Assembly (NCBI GenBank): GCA_963855995.1 | Contig: OY979717.1 | Coordinates: 4,705,728 to 4,769,727, forward strand | Direction of reading: 5' to 3' | Source of the DNA: Muricea muricata | Taxonomy: Eukaryota; Cnidaria; Anthozoa; Malacalcyonacea; Plexauridae | Length of the DNA: 64,000 nucleotides | Part shown: piece by piece, positions 35,203-64,000 of the stretch | Layout: every line of letters begins with the position of its first letter | Numbering within the stretch: position 1 is the first letter of the stretch | Program-made: the position numbers and the translations under genes | Notes under the pieces: model-generated | The model's database searches: none | Seen by the model: only the letters and a program-made list of their open reading frames with translations | Told to the model about the DNA's origin: nothing

Positions 35203-38200
35203 ATGGTTTTGTCATGGCTAAAGTTTATTCTTCTTATCACCACAACATATCAAGTAAACGCAGAAGGTATTGAATAATTGCAGCTAGCTCACCGTGACTG
35301 CCATGTATCTTAGCTTTCACAACACCGTATTTGCCTAGAAAATAAGGAGATAGCGTTGTCAGGTTTAGAAAACAAAACAACATTCTCTGACTACTGAAAT
35401 ATTTTATTGAACGAGCTTTCAACTACCCAACTGTTAGTCTTCGACGGGCTGAAGCCGAATGGATTACTTACATGCAAGATTGCAAGTGTGTGTTGAAATG
35501 CGAAACTTGATTTAGCAGGAAGTAATTCGTTATGTCTTGAAGTGTAGTTTGATGTGTGAAGTGTAGATAATGGTGATGAGAAAACTCGTCTAATAAAATA
35601 TTTAGTCAGAGAACGTTGTGTTTTAGATACTGGATTTGTCTTTCTGGGGCTGCATGATTGTACGAAGGGTGGATAGCGGTATCCATCGAATTTAGTGGGG
35701 TTTTCAGCTGCTGCAGAAATTCATAAAAAGCAAGGACGGCAGGGATATTCACCCCTGCAATAGCTAAAACCTATTTGTCCTTCTGTCTACATGATAACGA
35801 CGTTTTTAATGCAGTTTTAGGCAAAGCCAAAGGTTTGAAGATTCATCCTGAAGGTGGCTACTTTCAAAAAGACGAGAAAGTTACGTTGTCTTGCATTCCT
35901 ACGACTGGTCAGTCTGTGCCAGTATCATGGTACAAGAATAACTTGATTATTTCCCTGGATAATGATAATATAATCATTGGTAATAATGGATCATTGACCA
36001 TCATCAGTTTTCAACCACGTGATGAAGGTTACTACCAGTGTGAAGGATACCGAGGGCAATTTAGACAAAGCCCAGTGGTTGCTGTCATTCTTTTTGGTAA
36101 GATGCATTCTGTCTTGTAACAGGGGCCTGAAGAGGGGTCCTACTCGCATTTCCCAGTTCAAACTTTGACTAAATTTTAGTGCACAAGCCACATACTCCCA
36201 GCTCAAATCGTAATCGTATTCCCATTTTCTATATTGTTTTTTGGTTGTGAATGAATCGCAGGCCCAGTGTATGGAATCCACTCATTTTTCCAGCACAAAA
36301 TAACTCCCAGCTCTCATTTTACCTCTTCAGGAACCTCTACGTATGACCACGTTAACTATCACATGAAAATATAGGATTTTTAAGAAGTCTAGAGCATGAG
36401 AGGAATTACTAATTCTTATTTTCTTATTAAGAAAAGAAATACTTAAATCAAACAATTTTTTCTCCATTCTCTAGTTCCTGTGTACTTCGTTCAACACCCA
36501 GTTGACGCCATTGTTCGCCGCGGTTCAGTCGCAACGTTTTACTGTTTGGCTGACGGTAGCCCTAAGCCAGAATTATTATGGCAAAAAGGCGATACATATT
36601 ATACCCGAGGTGAGAGTCTTGGTAAAATTCAGGTCTTGGACGATGGTACACTGGAGATTGGTAATGTTCAACTGCGTGATGAAGGCGTGTACACATGCAT
36701 TGCTAGAAATAACATGAGCCAAGCTCTGATGGGTGATGCACATCTTACTATCATGTATCCACCAATCATTGTAAACATGAGCAAAAATACAACAGCAACA
36801 AGAGACACTAGGCTGACTTTACAGTGTGAAGTGCAAGGGTACCCAATGCCGACAGTAACCTGGATCACGGAAGATAATGTTAAAACTAAATATGCTGAAA
36901 TGATGACCCTGGATGGAACGCATTATCTGAATATCGCTAGAGTTCAAAATAGTCATCAAGGACAGTTTATCTGTGAGGCCAAAAATAAACTGGGCACCGC
37001 GAGGAAAGAATTGTTTTTGAATATTAAAGGTAGAAATATAGTAGCTAAGAGAATTAATATGAACTAGTCTAAAGGCCTATCTTCACAATATTTTGTGGTA
37101 TCCTACCCAAGGGTGTGTGATCAAATAAACAGGCATAAAAAGTCAGATTTCAAAGCTCTCCGTCAGGGAATCATCTCCATACGCCAGAATGACAATCGTA
37201 TTATTTGTTTGTAGTAAACGTCACACCCTGTTTTGTGTGGAATATTTATGAGATGTACGAGTTGTTCTTAATAGAATTCTTTCTGGTCGATATTTAGCGC
37301 GCGGCGGGCAATATTTCCCGTCACCTGAGGAAAATAACAAGATATATGAGCTGAGTGTAAACAAACAATGCGACAACTGCATCGCTTATATCGAAAGAAA
37401 ATTGGGCTAAAATATTGTAGGCAAACTATACCACTATGCACAAGTTGCAGTGAAAATCTGAATTAAACATATATATGAAATTTGAGTGTTAAAAAACACT
37501 GGGGAGCATTGTAAATGATTGAATTGATAGATGCGTGCGAATGAATGAAATCACTTACAATTTCAATGTTGTAAAATGACTTTAATAAAGAAGATGCTGA
37601 AAGCTTGTCAATTGATTTAAAATTAAGTACATGGTGATGATTAAAATGCATTCATAAACTAATCTAGAGATATCAATTCAAATTTTCCATGGTGCTTTTC
37701 TGCATGTTTTTTCTTCATTCATTAGATTACCTTGTCAAATGTTTTGATTTAAAAAATGTTATTTTAGGGCGTACCTGTCGTGACAGAGATGAATTCACAT
37801 GTAGTAACAATGGTGATGATGGACACTGTATCCCCAAAGTTTGGGTTTGTGATCTGGATAATGATTGCGCTGATAGTATTGATGAACTAAATTGTGGTGA
37901 GTCAGTGTGAAATCTATTTAACATTTTTACATACGAGCATACACAATATTCAGTTCACTCCCCAGTCTTTTAGTGACCGATTACAATTTCTACATTTTAC
38001 GTAACCATTGCGTACACTATGTGCAATGGGTTAGTTTTGGAGAGGGAGGAAAACCTGAATACGTTTTGTAAATTTTGCTGTTTAGTGGACATCAAGCCAT
38101 GTTCATCAATATACGACTTTGCGTGCACGAATGGTCGTTGTATTCCCTGGAGTTTGACGTGCGATGGTGATAATGATTGCGGAGATAATACTGATGAACA

Positions 38201-41200
38201 TCGTGATTCATGTAAGTTTTTTTTATCGTGGAAATTGCAAGAAAATTTATCAACAGCGATCCCCACTAGAACTAATATAATTTATTGTAGGATCATCCAA
38301 ATTTTAAATATTTTACTCTTTCTGACTTTTCGTCTACGTTTACGGCAGCCATTACGGCAGAATGTACATTAAATTTAATTAACGAAAGAACCCGCATCTA
38401 AAATCTGGTTGAGGAACATCCCTTGAACAGAACGACCCCCCCCCCCCCTACACCAGCTTTTGTTCTCGCTACCTTCGTTGTCATTGTTGCTCTTATTTTT
38501 ATCTGTGATTCTTTGTCCATTCTATAAAAAGTATCTCAACCACATGTACAATTTTTATTCAAGGTTTTCACAAATGTAACAGTTCCATATTCTTTACATG
38601 TCGAAATTGGAAATGCATCCCGAAGTTATGGCGCTGTGACAATCATGATGACTGTGGAGATGGTAGTGATGAAATGGGATGTGGTGAGTTGAGCTCCTCG
38701 ACGTTTTTCATAGAACTTTAACATTCTTCTAGTATTTTAATACTTAGCCTCCTAACTTTTAAACATATTTATTATATGAAGTACAATGCTTTATATGGAT
38801 TTCGGGCACTGATAAAACTGATAATCTCACATGTGAGATTATTTATGATAATTTAATTTCACATGTGAAAATTATCGCTTTTCAAACATCGCAATCATCA
38901 ATCATAGCGTCTGGACATTTTATATTGGTGGAAAACCTGTAGTTTATATAATAGACAGAAAAATACGTGGGTACTTGGAAATACCAGATTTATTTCTCGT
39001 GTTGAACCTGATATTTCTCACTCGTGAGATATCATGTTCAACACTCGAAAGAAATCTGGTATTTCCGCGCACGCATGTATTATTCTCTATATATTAACAA
39101 GTGTACTGCTCATGAGACGTAAGAACCTCGTTGTTGTTTTGATGTTTCAGTAAAAATGTGTGTTTAGTTCAGAACTTCGCCAACCTCATGGACAGGCGGA
39201 ATGACTATTTAAAGAGCTCGGTTGATTGGGCGAAAAAGAAGGTTAAACCATAGACAATCAAAAGAATGGTTGGAAACGCAAGCTAAAGCGTCAATGTTGC
39301 TGACGCGACATCCGTGATACGGCCTGATATGCTATAACCCTGTAATTTCACTTTAAATATACCTCAGGACTTTCTATTTACATATTTTAGACAAGAACGG
39401 CAATGTCTATGGAACTATCGACTTTTAAAATTTTTTATGGATATAACACAGCTAAAACCCAACCCAGAATGTTTGCATTCTTTTTGACTACAGAAATGTC
39501 GCCATTGTTGTTGTTGAAAAAGGTTTACGGAAACATTAAATGGTGATTTTCCGCCTTGTTTATCCCTCTCAAAAGTTTTAAAAGTCGATAGTTCCATTCA
39601 CATTTCTGTTCTTGTTTAAAATATGTAAATACGAAGTCCTGAAATGTATTTAAAGTGAATTTACAGGGTTCCAAAGTAAACCGTATCACGGATGCCGCGT
39701 AAACTTTAGCTTGCGTTTCCAGTCCATTCCTTAGATTGTCTATGGTTAAACACAACTAACTACAAACCCTAGTATATAAGCGTGTGCCAAATACACTCCA
39801 TTTTCCGACTTTAACTACGGGAAAATTTCAGTATTTTAATAAAATTCAAAAGAACAGTAACTTTGAACATCATCTTTTTTTCATCTAACGTTGCGACTAG
39901 CTAAATATCAAAATGTTCTTCGGAGTTATAGTTGTTTTAAATTTTCTGACTTTGTCATTGTCATTCATGAGTTACAGCTAGGTATATAGTGTTGAAAAGC
40001 AAAAATATTTTATTTAATGTACCTGTCTCATACTCAGTTGCGGTCGCTACTCCAGTTTTAAAGCTCAAACCCTTAATTGGACGTTTTCTAAAGGCCAGGG
40101 GGTCGCTTGTATAAAGCTCTTAATCACTTTTTGATCACTATTTTGTAGTTAAATACTGATTAAGTACAAAATACCACTAATCATAGTTAACATATTAATC
40201 ACTTTTTTATACAACCGGTCCCAGGAAAGGAGGAGGTTGAATCGTATGTACCTCGGATCCCCGGTAACTGAGCAAGAACTAAAATCCAATCATTTTAGTG
40301 TCGAAGCTAATCAATGGAACTTATCTAATTTTGTGTAGATAGTGGAGCGTTTTGTCTAGCAGATGAATTTCAGTGCGAGGAAAGTAAGAAATGTATCAAG
40401 AAAGCTTGGGTGTGCGATAAAGATGATGACTGCTCAGATAAATCTGATGAAAGAAATTGCGGTAATGTCATCGTTGAAGTGCATTTAAACTCTTGGTTTT
40501 TTTTCAAAATATACATTCCTGGTGACATATATAGTCTCTTGTAAAAAGAACTATTTCATTTGCCACTAAATACGATTAATAATTGTAATTAGCAATTTGT
40601 AAATTGAGAATTGCAAGTTAACTATATGGATTGTTGAGTGGAGGGGAAGGATCTTTAAAAGTGATAGGAGCTTTAAGGTTCAAATTGGATGAAGAAAATA
40701 GAAAGGATGCCTCGTTATCTCTAAGGAAAAGCCTCAAAGGTTGTTCGCATTATTCGTTCCATGTCTCATGAGTGGTCCTCTCTAATGCGCTGTCCCAACA
40801 AACAATCCATGCATGCTTTGTGATGTTGACTGGGAGAGCCATGAGTTTTCTAGTTTCCATCCTTTGTAAAATAGTAAGTAGTTCAGTGTTGAGCTGAACT
40901 GCAGACGAGGAAGCTCGATCTGATTCGGGTAATGGTTTGTTAAAGAATGAGGGCGCATCTGGAAAAATGTAAATCTTATTTGATAGTATATTTATCGCAA
41001 AGTACGACCATAACGGAATGAAGAGATTGCCTCAATTTCCTTGTTTGAAAAAATCTGTCTGAATCTGTCTGCATGAACGACGACTGAGCCGATAATTATG
41101 TGATCTGATAGAGCTTATTCATAGATGATATTCTCTATTAATAGTGTCTGGTTACAAAACTACAAACTTACAGGTACAATTTATTATTACATCGGGGTAC

Positions 41201-44200
41201 TTAAATAATTTCCTTTTACAATCTGCTGTCATTTCAGAATACGCTGCATGTGGTGCTGATAGTTCCACGTTTCCTTGTGATGATGGCGAATGCATTCCGT
41301 TGCCATGGAAATGTGATGGAGAATTCGATTGCCGCGATAGATCAGATGAGATTGAGTGCAGAGCGAAACCTTCAGCTGAAGATCAAGTGTCAACTAAATG
41401 TAGGAAGAACGACCACCTGTGTGATGGTGTTTGGTGTATACATAGTACGTGGTTATGTGACGGAGAGAGGGATTGTAGAGATGGATCCGACGAAAGAAAT
41501 TGCGGTATGATATAAATAGAGCTTCAAGCCAATTTCCACTTGGAGAATTTGTTCGCGCCAACAGAAAAAAGTATGAACTACTTTTCCTACTTGTTCGCGG
41601 CGAATATTATCGTGAACCAATTTTACCCAATCACGTAACCGAATTCTTGTTTTCGCTTCTCGTCTTGCGAAGAGGTGGGATAATTAGCCTACGTGAACGT
41701 GACCGTGTTTGGATGATTAATCCTCGTGAAGGTGGTCAAATGAGCATATGTGACGGTAGTCAGATGTGCCCATCTGATGGTGGTCAGATGCGATGGTGGC
41801 CGGATGCCTCTAGAAACTTTGTATCCATCTATGCTTGTATTATACTAAAGTATAAACTGCAACAAAGGAATCTAGTTTCTTCTGAGTTTTAAATGAAGTT
41901 GCAAATTGCGTATTGGAATTTTTACAAAATGTTTAGTTTTACTCGACGTTTTCCGACGTTGTGCGTATTTTAATTGTTGCACATGTAAACCCTATATAAA
42001 TAGTCAAAATAGTGTAAACAGTTAAATAGACGAAGATTTCTCTCTGAATCTTAACTAGGTAACTCTCCGCACATTTTACGCTCACGATGTCGTCAAGATC
42101 AACACGAATGCGATAACAAATGCATTCCAGGAAATAAAATTTGTGATGGAATTAATGATTGTTCCGATTTATCGGATGAAGACACATGCCAAGGTAATTA
42201 AAGTTCTGGCTGAATAGCAGCTTAGTAAGCTTACTGTACAGAATATTTGAAACATTCATTTGCTCAATTGAAATTATTTCACACAATCTTAACGAGAAAA
42301 TAGAAGAAGTTGTTCATTCTCCTCAGAAACCGGAGAAAGTTCTGCTTTACAGCGGAGGAAGTTCTGCTAACTCAGTCACGGGACTCAACAGTATATTGAT
42401 GGTAGAATTTTAAAAGAAAATCTAGTTTAGAAGTGGTTCAAATTTGGATTATTATAACATACAGTGTATTCTGCGACCTTTCATTACAATTCGTTTTCCT
42501 TCTTGGTTTTATAGAGTACATCTTGTATAGTTCACAAAACAGCATAAACAAGTTAGATCTACATGATTACGAATCCAGAGTTCTAATCAATGAATTGCCA
42601 AATGCTGTCGCCATCGATATTGATATTGAACAAGGAATGATATATTGGACTGATATAGCTCATGACAGCGTGCAACGCGCTAAGATTGGGACAAATAACA
42701 ACACGTTTGAAATTGTAATACAGTTTAACTTGGAAAGTCCTGAGGGAATAGCGATTGATTGGATTGGAAGAAAGGTATATTGGACAGATAGAACTCCAGG
42801 AAAAATTGAAGTCTCGGAACTGGACGGAAGAAATCGTGCCGTATTGGTCAATGAAAACATTAAAACACCAAGAGCCATTGCTGTTCATCCTCGATACAGG
42901 TATTTTTATACATATCCTCGATACAGGTATTTTTATATATTTTTTGATATGACAATCATTCTATCTACTGCTATATAAATGACATAGTATCAAGAGTACA
43001 GCTGACCAGTCTATTACTCACTGTGTTCTGTCCGCCATTGAGAAAGTCGTCAATCACATCAACGCAGAATTATTTCATTTTTTATATTTGTGATCTTAGT
43101 TCACAGATATTATAAGTAAAGGCTACAACTAAGTTTACTCATTAGGTTTACCTAAAAAAAGTTTAAATAGCTTTTAGATGTAGTGTTTAGCCTTTTTTGA
43201 AATTGTTAGTGTGGTCATGAAAGCATTACTATTATTTAGCTAACAATTGTTTATACTCCTTGACTTTGTATTAATGCAATGTTTCTCCATTTGTTAATTT
43301 TGACAAAATTATAACACATCAAAACGACTTTCACCGGCGGCCATTTTAAAAAAATACCAACTGGTAAATAATGCCTCGTTTTAACTGCTCAGGCAACCAA
43401 TCAAAATGCTTGAACTATTATTTACTAAAGAAATTACACTTAATTTATAACTTAATTTACAATTGTTAGTATCATATGATCAGAAACAACTGGTAGTGAT
43501 TATTGTGGCCTGAGGATCATGATTTATCTTTTAAGATTGCTTTTTTGGACCGAATGGGGAGCAAACGCAAAAATTGAACGATGCGGGATGGACGGTGACC
43601 CTGCAACACGCCAGGTTTTAGTGAATACGAATATCAACTGGCCAAATGGTTTGACCATTGATTACCAGACAGAGCGACTCTGGTGGGTGGATGCTAAAAC
43701 TATGAGGGCAAAAATTGAAAGCGCGAATTTCGATGGAACACGGAGAAGAGTAGAGATCGATGGTAAGAATGGCGAACTTGGCCATCCATTCTCTCTCGCT
43801 GTCTTTGGTCAAAGTATATTCTGGACTGACTGGAGACAGAAATTAATATATCGAGCGACAAAAGAAGATTCTAGTGGAAAGACAACAGTTGTTAAACGTG
43901 TAGAAAACTTGTTGCCAATGGACATAAAGGTTGTACATCCACATCAGCAAGTTAAAGGTATATAAAACTTCTTTGTATGTTTGCATGGTGCATAAACGTA
44001 AATTTATTGTCGCCAAGCTTTTTATTCGCAAGCTCGGATCTTCATCAGTGCTAATAATGCGAATAACTTAAGTAATAGTAAGAAATAATTTTTAATGAAT
44101 GCCACTAATTAATTTTAAATTAGTCGCATTATTAGCACTGATCGAGATCCGGGCTTTACGGACCGAAAGCTTTGCGACAACAGATCTATATGGTGTTTTA

Positions 44201-47044
44201 TAGCACTGTACGACCATATACTCGATACCTAATTATCCATAGACGTATTCTCAGGTGTGAACGGAAAAGTCGTTTTCAATCTAGAAAAGTGAAAAAAAAA
44301 CGTCTAGAAAAGACGTTTCAATCTAGAATTGTCACATGAAGAGAATCATTGTAGATCAGTAGATCTGCTAATGATAAAATTGCTCTTTTGCAGATTTAAA
44401 TCCTTGTGGTTTAAACAATGGCCAGTGTAGTCACCTGTGTCTGTTGTCTGCAAACCACGAGCAAAAATATTCATGTTTTTGCCCGATTGGTATGAAGTTA
44501 TGGAAGGACAAAAGAACTTGTACAATAGAAGGTATGCTGCAATGCGTGGAGGGGGGGGGGGTTATAGGCTCAATCATCCAATTACTTGTTCGTATTTCGG
44601 ATCAATCACGGTTTTTTGCCGGATTTGTGGATTGCGGATTATAACAGATATGCGGATTTAGCAGCTAATTTTCTTTGTTGTTTTTTACGGATTGCGGATT
44701 TTGTTTGATAGGGCAGACAGGGACACCTTGTTGAAGCATGGAAATTGTGGGTATTTTAGGATCTTCACGGATCGGAATTTTAGACCAAATATTTTCGGAT
44801 TTGAGGATTTAGTAAACATTATAATCACCTGCCCCCCCCTCCCCATGTCTTTAAAAAACGAAGCCCATGTATTTGTTTCAAAACATTGGAGCAATTTTGG
44901 AACAAATTGACAGCGGCTCCATTTATGTGGTTCCATTAATGGCAAACGTTCCAAAATTAATGAGAATAAGAGGTAGTAGAGCAGAATAAGAGCAAAACTT
45001 TGTTTTTGAAACTTTATAGAATTCATTGTTATTTCAATGTTAGGCCTTAAATAAAGATGGTAAACACTACAGAAAAAAATAATTGCAAAAAATACTTAAA
45101 TAGCTAAGATATAGTTTAAAATTTACGGTGGACAGTCAAAGTAACCAGATCCTGCACTAACTGTAAAGTTTTCTCATTCATTAAACTGTAAGTTTTCTCT
45201 TTGCAGACAGCCCTCCATACATTCTGTTCGCCAACAGCGCTGGAATATTCTACGCCGATGTGAATTTGAGACACATCAGTCCAGTTTTAGCGGGAATTGA
45301 TGGAGGTGCTGCATCTATTGATGTTGATCTCAAAATGAAATATCTGTACTGGTCTAATGTGGTTAATGATACCATAGAACGTGTTTCATTGAGTCATATT
45401 GGTGCTGTTGAGACGGTCATTAAAGATCATTTGGAGTTAGTTGATGGGATAGCTTACGATTGGATTAATCGGAAGTTATATTGGACTGATGGTAGAAGAA
45501 GAGTGATTGAAGTAGCTGATCCTGAAGAACGAAACTCAAGATTGACTTTGGTTGATGAAGGTCTTAACAAGCCTAGAGCGATCGTTTTACACCCTAAAAC
45601 AAAGTAAGAGTTTTATGTGTGTTTCGAAATGTCACATGCTCAAATGAACCTGACCGCGTAGCTCAATTTTTTCATTCCTTGGTCATGGGTTCGATTTCCA
45701 CCGTGGTCAGGCATATTTTTCGGCCAACTCGATGTTGATATAAACTCAAAGTAACATCTCAGACCACACACATTAAAGTTAGCGTACTTAACTGCGATTC
45801 ATTGCAAGGTTTTTTTAATGTATCTTTGGCGTCTTCTTTCTCTACTCCATGTTTCCTTGTTTCCCAAATTCTGTTCAATTTTTATCAAAAAGCATTGGAT
45901 TTTTATTTCATAATACGTGTCTGAAAACAGTGAATTCGCAATAATGATAACGCGTCAAATATTGACTCATTGTTTTGAGACGTTTAACAAACGAGTGTTG
46001 ATTTATAATTATTTTATTCCTACAGGTATATGTACTGGACTGACTGGGGTGTGGATGCTAAGATTGAAAGATGCGGCATGAATGGTGATTTAACAACACG
46101 AGAAACGGTCGTGAATGGAATGTTTGGTTTTCCAAATGGACTGGCAATTGATTATAAAGAAGAGAAATTATGGTGGGCAGACGCGATGTTGGATAAGATT
46201 GAAACATCAAATTTGGACGGTTCATTAAGAAGAATTGTAGTGACAGAAGAGTCAATTCATCCATTTGGCTTGATTGTTTACAACAGTTCAATAATATGGA
46301 CAGATTGGGTCGATAACATGATCTTTAAAGCTGATAAATTGACTGGGAAGATATATTTCTCCAAAGACGTTGGGTCGTTTCGACCAACTGGAGTCAGAGT
46401 AGTACATGAACAGATGTACCCTAGAGGTAAGAGAGTTAGGAATATAGATACCTAATTGTTTAATTTACTTTAGTTTTGTACTTGTGCTTATGTTTCGTCA
46501 CGGTTTACTGATAGATTTATCCTATATTGCTGTTTGCGGATTTATAACAAAACTAAACGTTGTCCAGGATAGCGATTGATCAATTTTTGTCTGGGACCGG
46601 TTGTACGATAGGTAGATATAGTTATCCACCGGATAGCGACTTTTTCAAGCATCCTGAAGTTGTTGATTTACTTTAATGGTCAAAGTCAGTGTTTAGCATT
46701 TTAAAGTTAAAGGGAGAACTTACAATTTTGGTTAAAGTTTATTTAGTTTTTATTGCATTTAAAAGCATTTTTAAGACAGGATAAAAAATCACTATCCAGT
46801 GGATAGCACTGTCCATCTTTCGTACAACCGACCCCTGGTGTTCTATACTCGATACTCGACGGCATTTAAATTTACTTTATTAATAACCCTTGTTATATTT
46901 TTTCCAGAAATTAATCCTTGCGGACGAAAGAAAAAAGGCTGCAGTCATCTATGTCTACTCAATCCAAAACCTCCATATTACAGCTGTCACTGCCCCAATG
47001 GAATGTTTCTTCTAACAAATAAAAAATCATGTCGATTGGTGTGA
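35203..47044 (+). CDS. secreted Ig–LDLa–YWTD/EGF (LRP-like) protein
   Basis: 15 exons: 35203–35266, 35821–36096, 36475–37029, 37768–37896, 38086–38211, 38564–38683, 40339–40461, 41238–41504, 42059–42193, 42515–42899, 43536–43957, 44394–44531, 45207–45603, 46026–46426, 46908–47044 (3675 nt, 1224 residues). Order: signal peptide; Ig (exon 2); two Ig (exon 3), each with C…W…DEGxYxC-like cores; seven LDLa modules (one each in exons 4–7 and 9, two in exon 8) with the Ca-binding C-D-x4-C-x-D-x-S-D-E pattern; a YWTD propeller (exons 10–11: IYWTDI, VYWTDR, LFWTEW, LWWVDA, IFWTDW); EGF (exon 12); a second propeller (exons 13–14: LYWSNV, LYWTDG, MYWTDW, LWWADA, IIWTDW); EGF (exon 15); TGA. Module-bounding introns are mostly phase 1. 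The propellers resemble LRP4/5/6, but there is no transmembrane segment and only two propellers. Extracellular ligand binding is inferred. Confidence 0.88.
38809..39070. repeat. foldback element(s) in LRP-like intron 6
   Basis: ATAATCTCACATGTGAGATTAT is a perfect 22-bp palindrome at about 38822–38843, followed by a long hairpin AAATACCAGATTTATTTCTC … GAAAGAAATCTGGTATTT (38978–39064) with centre CTCACTCGTGAG. Typical foldback MITE structure. Confidence 0.65.
39240..39752. mobile_element. ~510-bp element with long inverted arms
   Basis: The left arm GGTTAAACCATAGACAATC, continuing TGGAAACGCAAGCTAAAG and CATCCGTGATACGG, is matched in reverse by the right arm ending GATTGTCTATGGTTAAACA at about 39750. 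The arms are >200 bp. No protein is encoded (frames 39415–39597 and 39525–39755 are incidental). It sits in LRP-like intron 6. Confidence 0.7.
40095..40224. repeat. GGGCCGGTTGTAT-family MITE, copy 2
   Basis: CCAGGGGGTCGCTTGTATAAAG … CTTTTTTATACAACCGGTCC, with an inner AATCACTTTTTGATCACTA segment shared with copy 4 at 56205. Lies in LRP-like intron 6. Confidence 0.7.
42886..42940 (+). repeat. 27-bp tandem duplication of an exon end and its splice donor
   Basis: ATCCTCGATACAGGTATTTTTATA occurs twice in tandem. Each copy ends an exon-like CGATACAG before GTATTT, so donors exist after 42899 and after 42926. The 27-base difference keeps the frame. The first donor gives the canonical propeller sequence across the junction (HPRYR then LLFWTEW). 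Confidence 0.85.
43250..43445 (-). repeat. dispersed repeat, second copy
   Basis: Reverse complement of 22123–22330 (shared AACGACTTTCACCGGCGGC-like, TAAATAATGCCTCG and CAACCAATCAAAATGCTTGA blocks). Located in LRP-like intron 10. Confidence 0.65.
44007..44182. repeat. foldback element in LRP-like intron 11
   Basis: TTGTCGCCAAGCTTTTTATT…CAGTGCTAATAATGCGA is matched in reverse by TCGCATTATTAGCACTGA…GAAAGCTTTGCGACAA. The arms are ~55 bp each. Confidence 0.65.
45645..45706 (+). other. short tRNA-like sequence
   Basis: TGACCGCGTAGCTCAA … GGGTTCGATTTCCACCGTGGTCA has box A-like and box B-like parts and a near-pairing acceptor stem, but is only ~59 bases, too short for a full cloverleaf. It is a tRNA pseudogene or SINE scrap in LRP-like intron 13. 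Confidence 0.35.
46591..46837. repeat. GGGCCGGTTGTAT-family MITE, copy 3
   Basis: CTGGGACCGGTTGTACGATAG … CTTTCGTACAACCGACCCCTGG, with inner TATCCACCGGATAGCGA / ATCCAGTGGATAGCAC arms. Lies in LRP-like intron 14, ending ~70 bp before the last exon. Confidence 0.7.
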
Positions 47045-48341
47045 TTCTTAGGTTAAATATTTAAGCATAATTATACCTTGGTTTATCTTTTTGCGTCTCA
47101 CACAGCCAAGAAACACTGCTCAAGAGCAAAGTTAATATTAGCTAGATTATATATGTAACAACTATATATTTAAATAGACGTCCACGTTAATATATGCTCA
47201 GCCTATAAAATGTAAAGATTTAAATTTTTATGTAGAATTCTACTGGAAAATATGAGCCCACGTACTGGAAAAAAATGATCAGTGTGATAAAGGCTGTTTC
47301 CACTAAGTGGAATTTTGCGCGCGGAATGGAGTTTTTTTAGTGGGTTTTTTTTCTGAGAGCTCACAAACGAAGAAAAATTCGCTCTGCGCGGAAAATACCG
47401 TCTAGTTGAAAACAGCTTTAACAAGGTAACGAAACAACACGAGAAGGATTTCAGATATTGGAAGTTACAGGCTTGCCTCACTCGCTGATAACATTTTTAG
47501 GTTTTTCAACGCATTGAAATGTCTACATTGCTATTTGTAATGACATTACTATTCTCATGAATAGGATATAAAGGGATTACAAAAATTATAGATATGCATA
47601 CGGCCAAAAGTGGAATATATGTAAATTCAACATACAGAGATTTTTTCCCACAGTAGCTTTATTAACCATGAATAATTTGTTCATGTTTTGTATAGCGATA
47701 ATATTATACTAAAAGCAAAAATTGTTCTTATATATTTAATTTACTAGAAATAATTACTTTCATGATACTGTCGTAACAAAAAATTCTTAAGTGAGGAACA
47801 AAAATTATCGCCCCGTTTGTATCAAGGATAATTCTAAGCTGAAATGAATGAGCCGTACTGAATGTGTCCGAGCAAAAGGTGAGCGATTGCATTTTTAATA
47901 CAACAGGAACATTCATGTTAAGTTAACATTAAGAAAGCCAAAACTTCAAATTTCAGAAATATATTTCCATTCAAAAAGGTTGCCATATATATAGTGCGAC
48001 ATTCGGTTCACGTACCAAAGAACTACAAATGAGAAAATTTGAAGAACTGTAATTAGTTGGTTCTAATTTTATTATACCAACGTGCTATAAAATCATTTAA
48101 ACTGTTAAACAGATTACTACGTTAAAGAAAAGAATTCTCTATTGTATGAACAATATTGTCGTTTACTGCATGTTTTTAAACGTTTGATCAATAAAAGCTA
48201 ATTGTACTCATTTTCATTTTTTTTTCATTCGTCGAGTGCAATGCACGCACATGATAATACGAACTGTCTAGAGACTACAAAAACTAAAATAAATCATGAA
48301 AACTAACTAAATAGTACCATATCCAGGCGATAATAGTCTTT
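47045..48341. other. convergent intergenic interval
   Basis: Separates the 3' ends of the LRP-like gene (+) and the ABCG gene (−). Plus-strand AATAAA at 48190–48195 and minus-strand AATAAA (plus TTTATT at about 47658) are candidate poly(A) signals. They would make the two 3' UTRs overlap, but neither is certain. No further YWTD, LDLa or membrane exon is seen here. Confidence 0.4.
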
Positions 48342-51300
48342 TTACTGTTGCTTTCCACGATTTGTAAAAAGCAAGAAAATTAAAGCGATACAACGATACA
48401 CTACAGCCATGATAACAATTACTCCCAAACAAAAACAATAGTTTCCATCCAAGCTATAGTGGTCAGGAAAAGCAATTTTATCTCGCAATGGGCGATCAAC
48501 ATCAGGATAACGTAAGGCTTCTTTCTCAAACAAAGCTTCGACAAACCAACGAATGTAGGATAGATTATAAGCAAGTGGCCCAAAGAAATCAAACTTATCC
48601 AATTTACACAATGTTGGAGAAAAACCTAAATAAAAATAAATTTAAATATAACATATCAAAATGTCCAACACTGCAGTTTTCGCCATAATACGTGGAACTG
48701 TGTACGACTTAAACGTACATGCATGCACAGGTAGTCTTTAAACTAAAAAGTACCATAGTTAATACAGTAGATGGTTTGGAAACTCATTAGAATAACAATA
48801 TAACTCATTATCTATGTTGGTCAACGCTTAATTAAAAAATATGGTTCTTCATCGTCACGTGTGTATTGTGTTTTCGCCAAATCCACCAATCGGAATTCTT
48901 AAATTACCCTATTGTTCAAGTCGCGGATGACTAAATTTCCTAAAACGTTGCTATTGGTTAGTTAGGTGAAAATACAATACGCACGTGACGACGAAGGACC
49001 TCATTCCTGCATAAACCAGAACAAAAACATAGATAATGACTTATATTGTTGTTCTAATGAGTTTCCAAACCATCTAGCTCTATTAACTTTGAAAGTACTG
49101 AAATTAGTAATGGAAACTCCGCAGGAAAGTACTGGAATTAGTTATCAAATAGAAATCCATTTTCGACCCAAACGACCATGCAAATTCCTTACTTCCTGTA
49201 CTCGGTCTGTAAATTTCTGCCTGGTAGAGTTGAAATTTCCTTTACTAATCGTAATTACTGTAAGTTCTCGTTTTCAAAAAGTTAAGCAAAATAAAAGATA
49301 TGAGTGAGGGATTAAAAACCGGAAATGATTTCTATTAGCTAGTTCCAGCCTGTGGCAGAACATATAACAAAACAATACAATGACAACAAGTCTGCACACT
49401 TTTAAAGGTTCAACATGAAATGTTTTTACAGAAAGAGTTAGGGAATTGTTAGTATAAACATAACATAAAACAAAGCATAAACAGAGTATTTACCTGACAA
49501 CATCGCCATTACTAACACTACAACAACAGATGCCATTTGAGAACTTTTTGGATTGAAGATCGTAGAAATAGCATAACCAATACCAGAGCAGCACAACTGA
49601 GCGCAAAATACTGCGGTATAATGCGCAGAAAAGTAGGCTAAAAAAGAAGAGAACATAGTTAAGAAAGTGGAAGTCAAGTGCATCTAATATGCGCATGCAT
49701 ATGTTGTTGGTAGATTTTATGAATAAATAAGCCAAACCGTCATTAGTATCGTCAAAATAACAAAGAGAGCAACAGGCAAATACAAAAGAAACAATGAGTA
49801 TTGTTAAAAATTTGGCTTATTTATGCAGACAATCCACCAACCCTGGCCAGTTGCCAAGGGAAAGTTCAGCCATCTTGAGAATTCAAGAATTAAGTTTCGA
49901 TTAATTACTCCGCCTGCCGTCGGCGAGGCGGAGTTTTAAATTTGCCCCGTTTCTGTTTTTTTTTCAAATCATGAGTTTTCAGCAATAAATTAAAATTCTT
50001 ACATCGTGGTGACGTCAGTGTGTAAAGAAGGCTGAGATAGACCAGTGGCATCATAACCAAGATTGGTAGTTGAGCAAAATTTACCGCCAGGAAATAGCTA
50101 ACACGATTAACACCAGCAGCACTTTCTCTGAAAATATAAAACGCACATATTTGGAGACTACTTGTTTGTTAAATAATAATTATATTAAACGTGTTGGTCA
50201 ACACTGCATACATGGAAGTTTACAAAAGTCTGTTTTTACCGCCAATATGTAGTTCTATGGTTTCCAAAACATCTCAAAGACGCCAACATTGCAGTGAGGC
50301 CGATAGCCATACCACTCATACGAACAAGTCCAGTGAATTTTTCTAACTTCACCTGTATTATCAAAAAATTATGTCGAGAAAATTTTATCATCTTTTAATT
50401 AATAAGTAAAGATTAAGTAAAGCGACGCGGTTTTTCAGGTTTTGAAAATGCATAAAACTGTTCAAGGAAGAAGGTACTATTTATTTATTTAGATCCGTCC
50501 CCAGGGCAGGGCCAGCACGGCAACGTGAGCCAACTATACTCGTGGCCAGCAGAATACCCCAACTCAATCTGTCGACTGTCCCTGTGGGAAGAAACGCGCT
50601 CGGAGTACACAGAGAAAATCCAGGAATTTCGGCACAGCGTTGACTTCTGCCATTCAACGTTTCACTATTTAGAAAATATGTGAACCTGACGAGTTGTGAT
50701 ATTCTGCCACCAAAAATGTAAGGAGGAATAATGTTTGCTTCTGAAAGCTAAAAAATCGCGCAGCGTTACAGCGATTCACGTCCAATGTGTGCACGATTGG
50801 GCGTGAAGTACGGTACGGCGTACGGACCCCTTAATATTGGCCAATGGCGTAACGTTTCATCAGGAGGGGAGGGAACGAGGCAGAAATTTGTGAAGGCCGC
50901 CTGCTACGAGTGCCAAAAGCACGAGTCGGGAGTGCATGCCTCTTCAGGGAAAACTTTCAAATATAAACATAGAGCCTGTTTCGTCCATAATGCTTTTAAT
51001 GACTCGTTTCTGCCTATAGCCTGAGCAATGGGCCCGAATTTTGTTAGAGCTCCTGGGTTTATCCGGCCAGAAACCATAGTAGTTACTGGTACATTGATAT
51101 TAGCCTACAAATAGACATTCGAACTACGGCCTGTGGAGAGGTAGCTTTTTCGATACTATATGTAAGGTAGTAATTACGGTAACGTAAAATAAATTCTAAT
51201 TTCAGTATAAACTTTCAAGCAGTTGTATACTTTTTCTGTCCAAAGCCGCGAGCTAGTTATACAGGGTTGCCGATTTGAGAATGTTTGGGTAGAACCTGCT

Positions 51301-54300
51301 AAGCCAATCATATAAGAAGCAGCAAAAAAACTGAACATTGCTGGTAGTGGAATATGTGTCTATTAAATACATTCAATACAAGTGTTGAATTGAGATTATT
51401 TATGTGGGTAGGGCGGAGGAGTTAAATATTCCAAGTACATACCTACAACAATAGAGACGCCTACCTCAATATACAAGGCTCCAAGAACACCACCAGCAAA
51501 GAATACGAGAAAGACGTCAATAAGCAATGTTTTCACGAGACGAATTTGTAGCAGAAATTCTCGTTGAGTGAACGTCAAGAATTGCATTAGCTGGTTGGGC
51601 AGTACACGTGCAGCTAAAAATATAAATTTATAAACTGGTTACGATCCAAAACCAATTAAATTTATCTTACTGCTTTGTTTAACCATTCAAATAAATAATA
51701 AAAAGTTATGATTATATCATTAGAAGAAAAGACTAGGATTTCAAGTTCAAGTGCCGTTACCTTGCCTTGTGGAATTGTGGAAATACGTACAATCCTCTCT
51801 GTGTGGCAAAGTATAATTAAAAAGTCACACATTGCACAACAATTACGTCCTACCTTCAGGATCGACCCTAGTCAGCACTGTCAGGTCTTCCTGAGAGTTA
51901 GCCTGATTTTCCTCAGCGTTAGCTCTTTCTTTCCAGGATTCAAATAAATCTATTTTTTCATCTCCTACTTTCACCGAACCTCCAATAACATCCATATAAA
52001 AATCAGCCGGGTTGACATTGGCAGGAGTGGCAAAACCAAGAGATGCGGAGAAATATTCGGCAGCGTCCGCTACAGTTCCTTGATAGACTGTCTTACCACC
52101 AGGACCAAGCAGTAAAATATTGTGAAACATATCTACACAGAAAAGGAAGATTATCTGGGTTAGTCTCGACCTGTTGCTTTGTCAAGAACAAACTTTGTTC
52201 TTGATTTGTAATGACAAAAGAGGCAATTTATAAACATCATTCTTTGAATGACGAATCATAAACTGTGATAATTTGTTTCTGAAGCGAAAACCATTCACAA
52301 AACACGTCATTAAAGATGAAGTACATAGTGTACTCAGGTGAAATTATAGTTGAGATATTGCCACACTGATTACACCACAATGGACAAAGCAGAAAAATTG
52401 TGCTAGGTCACCCTGTCAACCGAACGGACTACACGGCTGAGAATATTCGACTTGTATGTAACATTGGAGGTGCTTGCATATTCGAATCCCGCAAGCAAAA
52501 TTTCCTTACTTGATCCAGTGACTTTACTGAAACATGTGAGCTATCCTCAACGTGATTAAACTCTCAAGCACTTTAGAAACGTCAACATTGAGGGAAGACA
52601 TAAAAACGCTGGTAATAAAACTAACGGCAACGATCTAAGTTCAAATATTTTAAGAATTTCTTTGAAATCAATCAAACTATTCTTTTAATGCCAATGTCCC
52701 TTACAATTCGCTAATGCCAAAGTTTCACGCATGCTCTTCTAAAATATCTAAAAATAGTTAGCGATTACTTACTGAATATTTCGAAACGTGGCTGATGAAT
52801 AACGCAAAGGATAGTCAATTTTCCTTGTTCAGCAACAGCCCTCAATGATCTCAATACAGACAAACTCGACGTACTATCTAGCCCACTAAAACATAAAATT
52901 TCATATACGTCAATATATCTTAAAATTCATTAATTACCAGGTCCAAAATAGTGGAGACAAGGCCGGTTTACGAATATCACAATCCACATCAGCGATGCGC
53001 GCTCAGGCACTACCATTATTAACAGAAAGCTTTAAGATTTGATTAAATTCAAATATGTTTCAAACATCATAAAGTCTTCTGTTTTGAATAAGTATGTTAT
53101 TCAAATACAACCCAACCTGGTAGGTTCATCGAGAAATAACATATTCAAATATAACCCAACCTGGTAGGTTCATCGAGAAATAACATGTTCAAATATAACC
53201 CAACCTGGTAGGTTCATCGAGAAATAACAAAGTTGGATCTGCAATTAATTCCATTCCAATGTTTACTCTTTTTCGTTGTCCACCAGAAATGCCCCTTGTT
53301 TCCTACGATAAACAAAGCAAACTTAATTTATACCGTTAGAATGATATAACGCACTTTCGTATTCGCATACTTTCGTATACATTTTCAATACATGTAACCT
53401 TTCAAATATTTCTCACTGATTTATTAGAAATACTTTTTATAACCTGATCATACGCTGTATATCCTAACTTAACTAGACAGACTCTTAGATGAACTCGTGA
53501 GGAAATTATACTGTAATTCGTTATCATTGTATAATAAGTTAATGTTTTCAGTCAAGAAAACTAGCAAACCTTTCCCCCCTTAATAGCCTATCAAATAAAC
53601 AATTAGTTGTTAAACATACTGTATATATTGTATACGTATATTGTATTGTTCTTGAAGCAAAATGTCAAACATAGGTACCTAGTTTTTATCTATAACTTCC
53701 CTCAGACTTATTTCTCTCTCTTAAATGGTATCTGCATTTACGCTGTGACCTCTACAGGCAGGCAGGCAGTCTAACATACATGTACGTACCTCATCACCAA
53801 TAAGGGAGTCAGCAACGTGAGAGATTTCTAAGATGGTGAGTGTCTAAAGCGTAAAGAAATGCTCGTGAAATTACATGATAAAATGAAGAGCACTATAGTA
53901 ATCTCACATGTCATGTCTTTGCTGTCACGTCGGACACGAAAAATAATTGGACTCGAGTCAACATTGCCATTCAAATAACTCGACTCGGATTCGACTTGTT
54001 GATTTATGCATTAAATTACTCGAGTCAATTCAGCTGCAACGTGCTCAGAAAAAAATACATTTTGCAGTGTGTGTGTGCACGTACGTATAAAAACGCGTGT
54101 TCTAATTAACCCTAAGTAACCATAATATGGATGTTGACATTAAATAAATACGTAATTATTTTGGAGTAAAAGAGAAGATGATTTCTAACAAGGCCCAGGG
54201 GTTTTAGACAGTTACATCAAATGTTGTTTAGACAGATGAGTTTTCCTCATACAACGTGATTGATTTAACTCATCGTCTCCACCTGGGTGGAGCCATGACT

Positions 54301-57300
54301 TGATTCGTGAAATGACTTGGCCTGACCCGTGAGTCAGCCCATAGACAATCAAACAGAAATTTAAACACTTTATTATCTATATGGACAGTCTTTCAGTCGC
54401 TCGACTTGACTCGTGGCTCGACTGTGGTTGACACTGGGTTGTACTATAGTGTCACTGTGTATATTTTACAAGGTGTGTGTACATTAGTGTGTATGCTCTA
54501 CAAGTGTGTATATTCCACAAGGAGTTAGTGTTTCCTAACCTCGAGTGCACGTCAGGCCCATGCATCTAATTCAACTTTTCCCCGGCCTAAATTTCGATAT
54601 GTGTATTGTTTCCACTCAAGATTAAAAGTCATTTACTCTTTAAAAACCATACAACAATGATTGAAGTACCACTAAATCATATTACATTAAATGTTGAAAC
54701 TATTGTAAAGATAAATAGCATCACGAAAAGAAACCTCATTCTAATTTCCATGCAAGTAATTATCATTATTCACATTACCTGACGTATCTTATGATTGATA
54801 GTTCGTTTATTAGTTCCAGCAGGCAAGCGCAACATAGCTTGGTAATACAAAACCTCATTAACAGTTAAATTTCTGTGCATCGTATCTTCCTACAATTAAA
54901 GGTAGAAAACTTTGTATTTTAATTTTACAAACGCGGAGTCACTAGAAGTTTCTTTTATTTAGTGAAGCTGCTTTTATTTTCATGCATCGTTAACTAAGAC
55001 AAAATATTTGCATAAATCGCGTACCTGAGGGACAAATCCTGTTATAGATCTGAACTGTTTTATTCCTTTGACTACTTCGTTGTTAAATAATATCTGCCCT
55101 GTCGAGTTCTAAAAAAAATTAAAAACCTTTTAGAGCAGGTTTTCAATTCATATTTCGTTCGTAGAAGGTGCTCAATTTGAGAAAAATAATATTTCCACAA
55201 ATTTAATTAATTGCTAGTTGACTTAACTGCTAGCTTTAATTGCATAATGCTGTCCATTTAAGATTTTCTACTTACCGACATGAAAGAACGGGGACATAAA
55301 GAAAGACCTACCCCGTAATAAGCTTTTCCACTCAGTGTGTTTAGAAATGTGGTCTTTCCAGCACCGGAGGGTCCCATGACAGCTGTGACTTCACCTGAAC
55401 GTACATGACCTGTTACTCCTTGTAACACTACCTTGCCTTTGTTTTCTCCCTGCAAAAGAATATAAATGGAATTACGTAAGGGTACGTTGACACACAGCGA
55501 TTTGTCAGACACTATCCGTATGCTGGCGTATTCATCTATTTCAATTAACGGTTGTCTTCTTAAAAGCGTAAACCATGAACTTTGAGCGCTCACGTGTACC
55601 ATAGCCACTACCCTGTAGGTGTCTCTGAGAACGCAATCTTAGACTACCTCGCATCATCGCTAACTACGATCGAAGGACGTTACCCTGGGTACATCGCTAA
55701 CTACGATCGAAGGACGTCACCCTGGGTTACCGAAGGACATTACTCACTGGTGACTTCAACCGTTTAAATTTAAGTCGTCTCCTTGTGCAATTTAAGCTGA
55801 AGCAGCTCGTTAATTTTCCAACTAGAGGGGAGCGAACTCTCGCTCTGATAATCACTAACAGGCCTCAACATGAAAAATTGTATTTCAGCCTTTCGTGTTA
55901 TCTGATTATTCAGTTTTGCTGATGCAGCCCAAACCGAGACCTTTACGAAGCTGCATAGCCGTAAATAAACGATAATCCATCATCTCTTGCGCGCTCATAG
56001 TCTACAGTTTACGCTTTTGGAAGGACAACCTTTGTTGAATTAGCTTTATACAATTTTTAATTCGCTCTTAGCTCAAGGATAGTGTGACAATTTACTGTGA
56101 CAGTGCTGAAGGGTCATAAATTATTGCGTGAGCACCAATTTTTAAACAATAAATTCAAATCGCACCCGACAAGTAGTGGCGTGTAATTAAACTCACCAAT
56201 TGACCAGGGGCCTGTTGTATAAAAAAGTGATTAAAGTTAACCATGATTAGTAGCAACGTCTACCAATCAGAACCACATATTTTGTACTTAATCACTATTT
56301 AACTGCAAAACAGTGATTAGAATAAGTTATTAAGAGGTTTATACAACCGGCCCCTGGTTTTTAAAACCAAAATATCCAAATGCTGACCCATTTGAATAAA
56401 ATTTATGTCTCAACTGATAAAATTGCGTTGACCTAAGCTAATCGGAGTTTCGTTTATGTTTATTCACTATTTCTGTTCACTGTGAAGTGAACCCAGGTGG
56501 AGACGATGAGATATTTTCATCTACATTATAACAGTGTTTTGTGGTCTACCGGTCAAATTGTAAAAAAAATTTGTAAAATATTGGCTAGGATTGATATTTG
56601 GAGAAAATATGTAAAAACCATACTGATTTTAAAGTCAGTCCAAGGTCTCTGAAACTAATGTCAATTGTATATGATTTTTCCTCAATCTGTTTATCCAGGT
56701 CAGTCTCTGAGAAAATGCCAAGTTTAGTAGCACCACGAGATGTTCCTGCATCTACACTGAAAATCAATGAAGATGAACGACGTTCTCTGCCAGTGTATCT
56801 TGTGTAGTATAAGTTATAGTAAAATTTAACCGTCCTCCACTTGTGATACAGTATGAGTAAACCAATGAAAATTAACAAGACGAGGACATCCAGTAATGGC
56901 GCGATGAAGTTAATGATTGGAGCTGAGCTTTTCCTCTTACATTTTGTAAGCCACTACAAAAAAAATTAAATATACATGCACCTTTACCTACATTATCAGC
57001 ATATTGTGTGGTGTTGTGGTCACCACTCTTGTCTTCCAGGCTAAGAGGCCTGGGTTTAAGCCTTGATCGGATCTTTACTCAAGGTCTTATTAAAATAAAT
57101 TAGGTGAAAGCGCTATCTTTACATTGACATCTTTCGCGTGTTCTTGGGTAAGGACGTTAAACCCGCAGGTACATCGAACCCCTTCTATTAATTGGGCAAT
57201 AGCCTCAGTACTGTAAATCAATTACCCAAGACTGGAGAACGGAATAAATAAAATCAAAACACATCTTTCATATTTGCTCATGCATGTAATGTAGTCGTAT

Positions 57301-59938: not shown

Positions 59939-60703
59939 CTGAAAAACAACTTGTACGTAAATGTAACAATTAAATTTGGACTGGACTTTCTCATCCAGGC
60001 AAGTCGTTACAGTCCAATGTCTTTTATGTGCACCGCACACCGTGTGGTTGGACTGTCCATGAACAGGTCTACAGGCTGACTATTAGATTTGGACAAAGTC
60101 CTCTCTCTATAGCGTAAAAGCGACGCGGTTATTTTTATTCCTTGGACCCTATAGAGAGACGGAGTTGATCCAAGTTTAGGTAATTATTAATAATCTTCTT
60201 TTGTAATCATTTTGTGTATTTTGTCTGTCTATATTTTGCTTAGTAATTTGTGTTACTTAAAAGGAGGTGTGGTAACTGTGGTTGCGTGGCAATCACGTCG
60301 TTCTTCAGGAATGACCGCGTCTATAGCTTCAATCAATGTTTTTACAACGTCTTGAAAATAAGACGGCGATTGGCATAAAGTTCAGACAGTGATAATTAAC
60401 CGATTCAAGACTCAAAATTCTGTTACCAAAAGTGCCTATCGGATAAAAACGATGAAAAATCTAGGGCTAAACTGCTTCATGTGATTCTTTAATCAATTCT
60501 CCTTCACTTCTTCTCCGACTGATACTCACAATACTAATGCAGATCTCGCGCGGCAAGAGGTCTGGATACCACAATAATAAAAATTTTATACGCATGCGCA
60601 AATATCCTCTTTCTTTCGTGGCGTGCTTCGGTCAACCACAAACTTTTGTTCGTAGTCTAAATTTACATAAAATCAGAAGAAAACAGCATCATATTTTTAT
60701 CAA

Positions 60704-61557
60704 ATGGATGAGCAAACAAACGGAAATGTAAGTACTTGTTTCAACTGTATTTTCCTAGGTTTTTTGTCGCAGGATGGATCGAAGATTTCGGAGAATACAA
60801 ATGCTAAATCGAAGGTACGAGTCACTGACCGCCTTCTGTTGTCTTTTAGGACAACTCATATCCGTTAGCCCCGATCCATACGGCGGTAGCTGCGGACAAA
60901 GGCCTTACTGGGGCTTCAAGTGTTGAGACTGGAGCTAGTACCTCCGCTCACTATACCCTTGATGCAAAGATTATCGAAAATGTAGTTGCAGAAACGGTGG
61001 CCAAATCATTACCAACAGTTTTAGCTCGTTTCTTATCCTCGGGGGGTTTGGTGCCACCAACGATTGCCACTCAACAGGTGGAATTGGCATCTTCTGAACA
61101 ATCTAAAGATACCGGTGTCGATTTACCCTCAACTAGTCGGGAAGACAGGTTCTTTTCTGAAAACAAGAAAACCAAGGTGTCAGCTGAGCTTTTAGATCTC
61201 ACAATGAAAGCCTTTTCAAAAGCTTTGTCAGTAGAGAAATGGAAAGAACTTATTGACTCCTACCCACCTATTGAAGGAGCTGACTCCATATTGGTTGCTC
61301 CTACCATGGAAGCTGGCATGAAAGAAGATTTGAGAAATCGCCATGGTTACCAGAAAACCAAAGAGGTGCTGGCATTTGACGAGGGTCTCTCTGAGAAGCA
61401 AGCTTCATATATATGTGTTGCCCGACCTATTCTCTTAGTCTTGTCAGCTTTGGATGCAATTTCAGAGGATGGGGAGCCAGATGGTCCAGACCCAGACACT
61501 ATCAAAGCCATGTTGGAAGATGCCTTGGTAATGTTAGGCAATGCCAATGCACGATGA
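60704..61557 (+). CDS. DIRS-like retrotransposon gag, with an intron
   Basis: Exon 60704–60727 (MDEQTNGN) ends at a good donor GTAAGTACTT. Exon 60850–61557 begins after the acceptor CTTCTGTTGTCTTTTAG and stays in frame to the stop. Total 243 residues. The middle has SAELLDLTMKAFSKALSVEK and YPPIEGADSILVAPTMEAG, and the end LVMLGNANAR, in the style of DIRS ORF1 proteins. Without splicing the frame has no upstream ATG. It precedes the reverse transcriptase frame and overlaps it by a few codons. Assignment rests on position in front of a DIRS-type RT/RNase H. Confidence 0.65.
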
Positions 61558-63079: not shown

Positions 63080-63224
63080 CAGGGTTGCCAGATCGCTGCA
63101 TTTTTGAGGCCAAATCGTCATTAGTGTAGTCAAGTAAACAAAGAAAACAAAAGCCAAGTACAAAGAAAAACAAAGAGCATTGTTGAAGATTTGGCCTCAA
63201 AAATGCAGTGATCTGGCAACCCTG
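63080..63224. mobile_element. hAT-type MITE nested in the DIRS element
   Basis: A 145-bp element with inverted ends CAGGGTTGCCAGATCGCTGC and its complement (GCAGTGATCTGGCAACCCTG). It is flanked by a perfect 8-bp direct repeat GGTGGGGA (63072–63079 and 63225–63232), the target-site signature of hAT transposons. It splits the RNase H region of the retrotransposon. Confidence 0.9.
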
Positions 63225-63827: not shown

Positions 63828-64000
63828 TTGCTCCCAACTGGACCGGGCAACCGTGGTATCCGGAATTGTGTGAGATGCTGATAGATCACCCACTGCAGCT
63901 ACCAATCAGGGAGTCGCTGCTAACCCTGCCATTCCGACCCGGGATGACCCACCCACTGTGGCGTTCTCTGCGCCTGACAGTATGGCCCATATCAGGAAGC

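Follow-up and report, generated by a model that had tools for sequence, protein, structure and literature searches.

A predicted gene of Muricea muricata joining Ig domains to LDLa repeats and two YWTD propeller–EGF units, with no recognisable membrane anchor

Does the gene predicted on the plus strand at 35203–47044 of a 64,000-nucleotide stretch of the Muricea muricata genome encode a single secreted protein in which Ig domains precede modules of the LDLR family, and, if so, what genes are its two halves related to and what might such a protein do? The whole stretch, hereafter the window (G000:C2:4705728-4769727), was analysed, and relatives were sought in the genome of 453 Mb in 74 contigs. 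A first-pass annotation of this DNA had proposed a signal peptide, three Ig domains, seven LDLa repeats and two pairs of YWTD propeller and EGF domain with no membrane anchor; it had called the propellers LRP4/5/6-style and suggested a soluble decoy for Wnt- or agrin-type ligands.

The exons in Table 1 were chosen by eye and joined by script, with no gene finder. Fifteen exons join into 3,675 nt, that is, 1,224 codons and a TGA stop, with no frame break across them; the introns (189–1,655 bp) are GT–AG in 14 of 14 cases and compatible in phase, with 12 junctions in phase 1 and the remaining two, which interrupt the propellers, in phase 2. The donor of exon 10 is doubled in frame by a repeat with a 27-bp period (42889–42936, copies starting at 42889 and 42916), and use of the second copy would add nine residues. 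The predicted protein begins with a signal peptide (its first 20 residues, judged by eye), followed by three Ig domains, seven LDLa repeats, two successive propeller–EGF units and the stop. Its estimated mass before glycosylation is about 135 kDa. The coordinates, domain order and exon phases are as the first-pass annotation gave them.

Table 1. Coordinates of the predicted gene and of other features of the window.
Feature	Position	Strand	Evidence
Exon 1: start codon and putative signal peptide, phase-1 exit	35203..35266	+	signal peptide judged by eye
Exon 2: first Ig domain, phase 1-1	35821..36096	+	joined exons, Pfam
Exon 3: second and third Ig domains together, phase 1-1	36475..37029	+	joined exons, Pfam
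Possible alternative start: in-frame ATG (37689) and hydrophobic stretch into exon 4	37689..37767	+	reading frame
Exon 4: LDLa 1	37768..37896	+	joined exons, Pfam, cysteine/calcium-site check
Exon 5: LDLa 2	38086..38211	+	joined exons, Pfam, cysteine/calcium-site check
Exon 6: LDLa 3	38564..38683	+	joined exons, Pfam, cysteine/calcium-site check
Exon 7: LDLa 4	40339..40461	+	joined exons, Pfam, cysteine/calcium-site check
Exon 8: LDLa 5 and 6	41238..41504	+	joined exons, Pfam, cysteine/calcium-site check
Exon 9: LDLa 7	42059..42193	+	joined exons, Pfam, cysteine/calcium-site check
Exon 10: first half of propeller 1, entered in phase 1 and left in phase 2	42515..42899	+	joined exons, Pfam
Exon 11: second half of propeller 1, insert included	43536..43957	+	joined exons, Pfam, alignment
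Exon 12: EGF 1	44394..44531	+	joined exons, Pfam
Exon 13: propeller 2, first half	45207..45603	+	joined exons, Pfam
Exon 14: second half of propeller 2, insert included	46026..46426	+	joined exons, Pfam, alignment
Exon 15: EGF 2 and TGA stop (47042-47044)	46908..47044	+	joined exons, Pfam
Doubtful hydrophobic tail of 18 residues before a stop	47654..47712	+	short-tail scan
Candidate polyadenylation signal: first AATAAA/ATTAAA after the stop	48190..48195	+	hexamer match alone
ABC2_membrane_7	51846-52181	-	Pfam
ABC_tran	55261-55638	-	Pfam

The domain matches lie far beyond chance, with E-values from 1e-13 to 1e-63: Pfam returned three Ig stretches (Ig_3, 6.5e-40), seven Ldl_recept_a (1.9e-61), seven Ldl_recept_b, each passing alone (2.3e-63), and two EGF domains (FXa_inhibition, 2.5e-13). 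Six Cys and the calcium-site motif are present in all seven LDLa repeats, and five of the seven also have the Trp that marks ligand-competent repeats of this kind. The Ig and EGF cysteines are conserved as well (by eye). The sequence match spans the whole propellers of solved LRP structures, which is consistent with six-bladed YWTD propeller–EGF modules. The most hydrophobic 19-mer of the predicted protein (mean 1.7) lies in the linker between Ig1 and Ig2. The fold predicted for exon 3 (mean pLDDT 54) was too weak for a structure search.

At the 3' end, the TGA falls three residues past the last cysteine of EGF 2, where the sequence reads TTGG/TGTGA, a phase-1 position without GT. The matching site of a related gene at C2:14.38M reads TTGT/GTAAGT, a strong phase-1 donor, and since that gene keeps the donor, its loss would be a simple route to the ending seen in the window. 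The best donor near the end, TTG/GTGTGA (47039), scores 5.1 against 7.3–11.4 for the 14 used donors, from which the scoring matrix was itself built. If it is spliced to the acceptor before 47105, nine codons follow and then a TAA, in line with the stop within ten codons that the first-pass annotation had foreseen.

An anchor was also looked for further on. A scan for an acceptor followed by a helix exon of at least 28 residues gave nothing in 47045–64000 in any phase; the same scan recovers the helix exons of an LDLR-type gene downstream and of a gene on C6, and yields two hits in the reverse complement. In the C2:14.38M gene it finds no helix within 6.75 kb beyond the EGF2 donor, a sign that far-off anchors can escape it. 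A looser scan, to 52000, returned 37 candidate splices, the best of which combine weak donors with poor acceptors and enter the hydrophobic stretch TVALLTMNNLFMFCIAIIL in phases 0 and 2. As a tail, this 18-residue stretch could anchor the protein if it were reached; it lies behind a fair acceptor at 47653 and is readable in phase 1 alone, and EGF 2 is without a usable phase-1 donor. Short hydrophobic tails occur here at the chance rate: with the three phases summed, there are seven in the 17 kb downstream, 24 in the reverse complement of that region and 11 in the 21 kb upstream. Past the stop, nothing matches the EGF, helix or tail exons of the downstream gene beyond chance level, and no other LDLR-like exons were found elsewhere in the window (best outside match, E 0.46). 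The sequence scans therefore mostly favour the claim of a missing anchor, none being recognisable in the 17 kb past the stop, and because the gene stops before any recognisable anchor, the protein is probably secreted.

Searched against the PDB, the Ig exons match Robo2 best (217 bits); Dscam, Robo1, titin, DCC and contactin come next. Within the same genome, the best relative of Ig1 outside the window is C3:51495449-51495670 (36%, 44 bits; 12 matches including the window, 46 of 46 candidates scored), and that of Ig2-3 is C3:51492362-51492910 (34%, 58 bits; 61 matches including the window, 150 of 236 candidates scored). The two places were found independently, lie 3 kb apart on the same strand and follow the order seen in the window. 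They belong to a Robo-like Ig-CAM at C3:51.489-51.497M (minus strand, L042), in which five Ig domains, FnIII-like exons and a helix can be read by eye; an exon with two Ig domains is common to this gene and to exon 3 of the window, and the two matched exons are separated by an additional Ig exon (by eye). The similarity is modest; this Ig-CAM is the nearest relative of the Ig cassette that was found and is not a proven donor. A fusion of MuSK and LRP4, with three Ig domains and LRP4-like propellers, was set aside: MuSK reaches 94 bits (8s9p_C) where Robo2 has 217, within the crowd of general I-set proteins, and the best Ig relative in the same genome is an Ig-CAM.

The combination of the two halves was then judged by whether Ig domains accompany propellers elsewhere. 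The propeller search of the genome gave 84 matches (150 of 170 candidates scored), and, among the candidates scored in the propeller and Ig searches, no Ig match besides that of the window lies within 100 kb of the propeller places listed. No Ig domain was detected by the downstream gene (tblastn and motif) or by the C2:14.38M and C6 genes (motif check), with a motif that recovered two of the three Ig domains of the window itself and could miss a divergent one. At this sensitivity, the unusual order Ig–LDLa–(propeller–EGF)x2 without a recognisable anchor, which the first-pass annotation had singled out, is seen once in the genome. The available portions of the open-access literature yielded no protein that joins Ig, LDLa and propeller domains. 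Within the reach of these searches, the combination looks new, while its parts and the way in which it would have arisen are familiar.

In the PDB search, propeller 1 with EGF1 scores 253, 256, 222 and 247 bits against the propellers of human LRP4 and about equally, 253 bits, against LRP6 E1; lower scores were obtained for LRP8 (223), the best LRP2 propeller (212), LDLR (211) and nidogen (136). Within the same genome, propeller 1 scores highest with propeller 2 (130 bits), then with the downstream gene (122) and C2:14.38M (109), and next with C10 and LRP5/6-like loci (108–104 bits). Two extra residues after DG are found in six propellers of four loci, namely both propellers of the window, that of the downstream gene, both of C2:14.38M and that of C6 (5 of the 24 rows of a half-propeller alignment, plus C2:14.38M propeller 1 from a whole-propeller alignment). 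The other 19 of the 24 half-propeller rows, including human LRP4 and LRP2 and the LRP5/6-like rows of the same genome, lack the insert. By this shared insert, both window propellers group with LDLR-type genes found in the genome itself and not with LRP4 or the LRP5/6-like genes.

Neither of two trees, of 24 half-propellers and of 13 whole propellers, resolves the placement of the window propellers. For the former, rows were filtered by length, absence of a stop and DW in the first 14 letters, which kept 18 of 30 rows from the same genome; the 12 dropped rows were mostly other blades or first halves, and C2:14.38M propeller 1, also lost, was restored in the latter. The whole-propeller tree held the two propellers of the window, two of human LRP4, two of LRP2 and seven others of the same genome (one from the downstream gene, two from C2:14.38M, and one each from LRP5/6-like C1:121.16M, C1:114.7M, C10 and C12). 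The wording "LRP4/5/6-style" is fair as a statement of resemblance and not of membership; the first-pass assignment of the propellers specifically to that type is not supported, as the insert groups them with LDLR-type genes and the trees do not resolve the matter.

The downstream relative lies on the same strand, 42 kb away, at about 89465–103110 in window coordinates (L033, L034). Eight LDLa repeats, an EGF pair and a single propeller are followed in it by another two EGF-like stretches, a helix and an FMNPVY tail, the last EGF, helix and tail being read off the translation and the first exon not being among those identified; by this make-up it is an ordinary LDLR-type receptor. A continuation of the window gene into the LDLR-like exons from about 89465 was considered and rejected: those exons form a separate gene with its own LDLa repeats, propeller, helix and tail, and an opposite-strand ABC transporter gene and a reverse transcriptase lie between. 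The C2:14.38M gene (minus strand) is itself unusual, with the order LDLa–propeller–EGF–LDLa–propeller–EGF and a single LDLa between its two propellers; no 3' end was found for it. LRP5/6-like propeller loci were noted at C1:113.65M, 114.72M and 121.16M; at C1:113.65M and C1:121.16M, propellers are followed by LDLa repeats, as in LRP5/6. A tandem array of similar propeller-bearing loci occupies C12:11.827-11.947M (minus strand), where the 150 scored candidates include no LDLa.

With LDLR and VLDLR, the window gene shares the string of LDLa repeats and a YWTD propeller followed by an EGF domain. The known receptors have an EGF pair between the LDLa repeats and a single propeller, a transmembrane helix and an NPxY tail, and they have no Ig domains; the window gene has two propellers, three Ig domains and no EGF pair, exon 9 (LDLa 7) joining exon 10 directly, and neither the helix nor the NPxY tail of the family is recognisable in its sequence. 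LRP5/6 are similar in their propeller–EGF tandem, but their LDLa repeats follow the propellers, the reverse of the order in the window gene, and they have a transmembrane helix. In the part of the source available, LRP6 is described with four propeller–EGF pairs (PMC5678438). An engineered soluble LRP6 E1E2 resembles the window gene in having two such pairs and no anchor and differs in being man-made and without LDLa or Ig domains. LRP4 likewise places an LDLa cluster N-terminal to propeller–EGF units and gives high scores per propeller in the PDB; its eight LDLa, two EGF, four propellers and transmembrane helix (PMC6966886, accessible passage) contrast with the seven LDLa and two propellers of the window gene, which has no EGF pair, no transmembrane helix found, and Ig domains in addition. 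Ig-CAMs such as Robo, contactin and DCC have in common with it only the Ig part, of I-set type; FnIII domains and the transmembrane helix of the Robo type are absent from the window gene. A parallel for the shuffling of LDL-receptor modules onto other ectodomains in an early-branching animal is provided by the SRCR-LDLR-YWTD combinations of the sponge Stylissa carteri (PMC4772301), where the partner named is SRCR, not Ig, and the available passage describes no equivalent gene. From Nematostella, an LRP4/5/6-like gene expressed in the forming apical organ is reported in the accessible text (PMC9720753).

On balance, we consider it probable, with some reserve, that 35203–47044 is one gene that arose by exon shuffling and encodes one secreted protein, a soluble ligand binder. 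An Ig cassette bounded by phase-1 junctions, of the kind seen in Robo-like Ig-CAMs, would have been placed before an LDLR-type gene or behind its signal-peptide exon, and the last extracellular exon of that gene would then have run into a stop, with loss of the anchor. Ligands of the LDLR-family type may be bound by the acidic, calcium-loaded LDLa repeats and by both propellers, and a cell-surface or matrix partner by the Ig domains, so that the protein could act as a soluble scavenger, a presenter or a competitor of its membrane-bound relatives; with no helix or NPxY tail, it could not itself internalise a ligand. We infer from the sequence that all exons share one transcript and that the product is secreted, and likewise its ligands and role. 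If the transcript is real, exon shuffling has detached the ligand-binding machinery of an LDLR-type gene from endocytosis and attached it to adhesion domains, giving a natural soluble LRP-type protein; to our knowledge, few secreted LDLR-family antagonists are known in this animal group. Relatives of both halves would then persist, the LDLR-type gene 42 kb away and the Ig-CAM on another contig, so that gain of the cassette and loss of the anchor can be tested across related species.

The alternatives concern both ends of this reading. We regard it as unlikely that the protein is membrane-bound and its anchor exon was missed, through another donor in exon 14 or 15 or an assembly error that destroyed the EGF2 donor. 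Relatives in the same genome do have helices (the downstream gene, with FMNPVY, and the C6 gene), yet the 17 kb without a helix exon of at least 28 residues in any phase, and the lack of matches beyond chance level to the neighbour's EGF, helix and tail exons, argue against a similar continuation here. C2:14.38M retains a donor at the matching site, where the sequence of the window differs very little, and a one-base assembly or sequencing error at TTGG/TGTGA could hide one; the best alternative donor, however, is weaker than all 14 used donors. The 18-residue tail stands behind a fair acceptor in phase 1 and 0.6 kb downstream, but such tails are common here by chance, and the 3' end of the opposite-strand ABC transporter gene (by eye) follows about 1.3 kb downstream. 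A pseudogene, in which an LDLR-type gene has lost its anchor and is now decaying, is highly improbable: donor loss is commonly an early step of decay, but all 15 exons are open, the domain cysteines are conserved and the other splice sites are all good. It is also doubtful that two genes or promoters are involved, exons 1-3 encoding a small secreted protein of three Ig domains and exons 4-15 a separate one with its own ATG in intron 3. That ATG, in frame and 27 codons ahead of exon 4, opens a frame with a hydrophobic core and keeps this possibility alive. An in-frame upstream Met occurs at 3 of the 14 internal acceptors, and a hydrophobic stretch of signal-like length only before exon 4; T-rich acceptor tracts, however, inherently encode hydrophobic residues, the tracts without Met before exons 10 and 15 are about equally hydrophobic (2.46 and 2.88 against 2.57), and the intron-3 peptide has no clear cleavage site (by eye). 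The AATAAA/ATTAAA hexamers in intron 3 (37124, 37462, 37584 and 37640) would suit an upstream gene end, but AT-rich introns carry them by chance, and this intron, at 738 bp, is ordinary for the gene. Exon 3 ends at an ordinary phase-1 donor and exon 4 follows an ordinary phase-1 acceptor; at the same time, the available part of one study recognises fused or otherwise erroneous gene models as giving rise to spurious novel architectures (PMC3927609).

A further possibility, a special case of the single secreted protein that we favour and the idea of the first-pass annotation, is a dedicated soluble decoy of the Wnt pathway, whose propellers, like LRP6 E1E2, would bind Wnt, Dkk or sclerostin-like ligands. 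We think this improbable. When the window residues are mapped onto the LRP6 sequence, the NXI pocket of E1 is only partly conserved: propeller 1 retains the lining Asn, Ala and Arg, and Asp takes the place of E73, yet the other acidic contacts, D52 and E115, are not conserved on this mapping, and the pocket Asn is kept in most aligned propellers, related or not. N185, A201 and E73 are the pocket residues named in the accessible part of the structural source (PMC7585440). Engineered soluble LRP6 E1E2, with its two propeller–EGF pairs, lowers Wnt/beta-catenin signalling (PMC5678438, available portion), and the genome contains two Dkk genes, both cysteine-rich domains of which were read by eye; no orthology of the window propellers to LRP5/6 or LRP4 emerged from the trees, and the insert points to LDLR-type genes. 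A role as a decoy for Wnt- or agrin-type ligands is thus not specifically supported. It is equally improbable that a secreted two-propeller ectodomain of LRP type, held to neighbouring cells or matrix by its Ig domains, captures Wnt-pathway or agrin-type ligands; were it to do so, it would be a natural counterpart of the engineered LRP6 E1E2 in one early-branching lineage, made by fusion of an Ig-CAM-type cassette to an LDLR-type gene.

Several other features of the window and genome were noted. One GFP-family match in the genome, with internal stops that may be an intron, and the two Dkk genes are in keeping with a cnidarian. The ABC transporter gene on the minus strand, ABCG-like by eye, extends over about 48300-59969 (Pfam matches in Table 1); the exon at 59637-59969, for which Pfam gives nothing, is assigned to the gene as a guess. 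A single long reading frame at 4709-5953 (plus strand) shows by eye a signal-like start, a proline-rich stretch and a Cys-rich repeat present twice, and has no Pfam match. Retroelement pieces lie at 541-1245 (minus), 11829-12251 (minus) and 62169-63065 (plus), comprising two reverse transcriptases and a weak aspartyl protease match below its cut-off.
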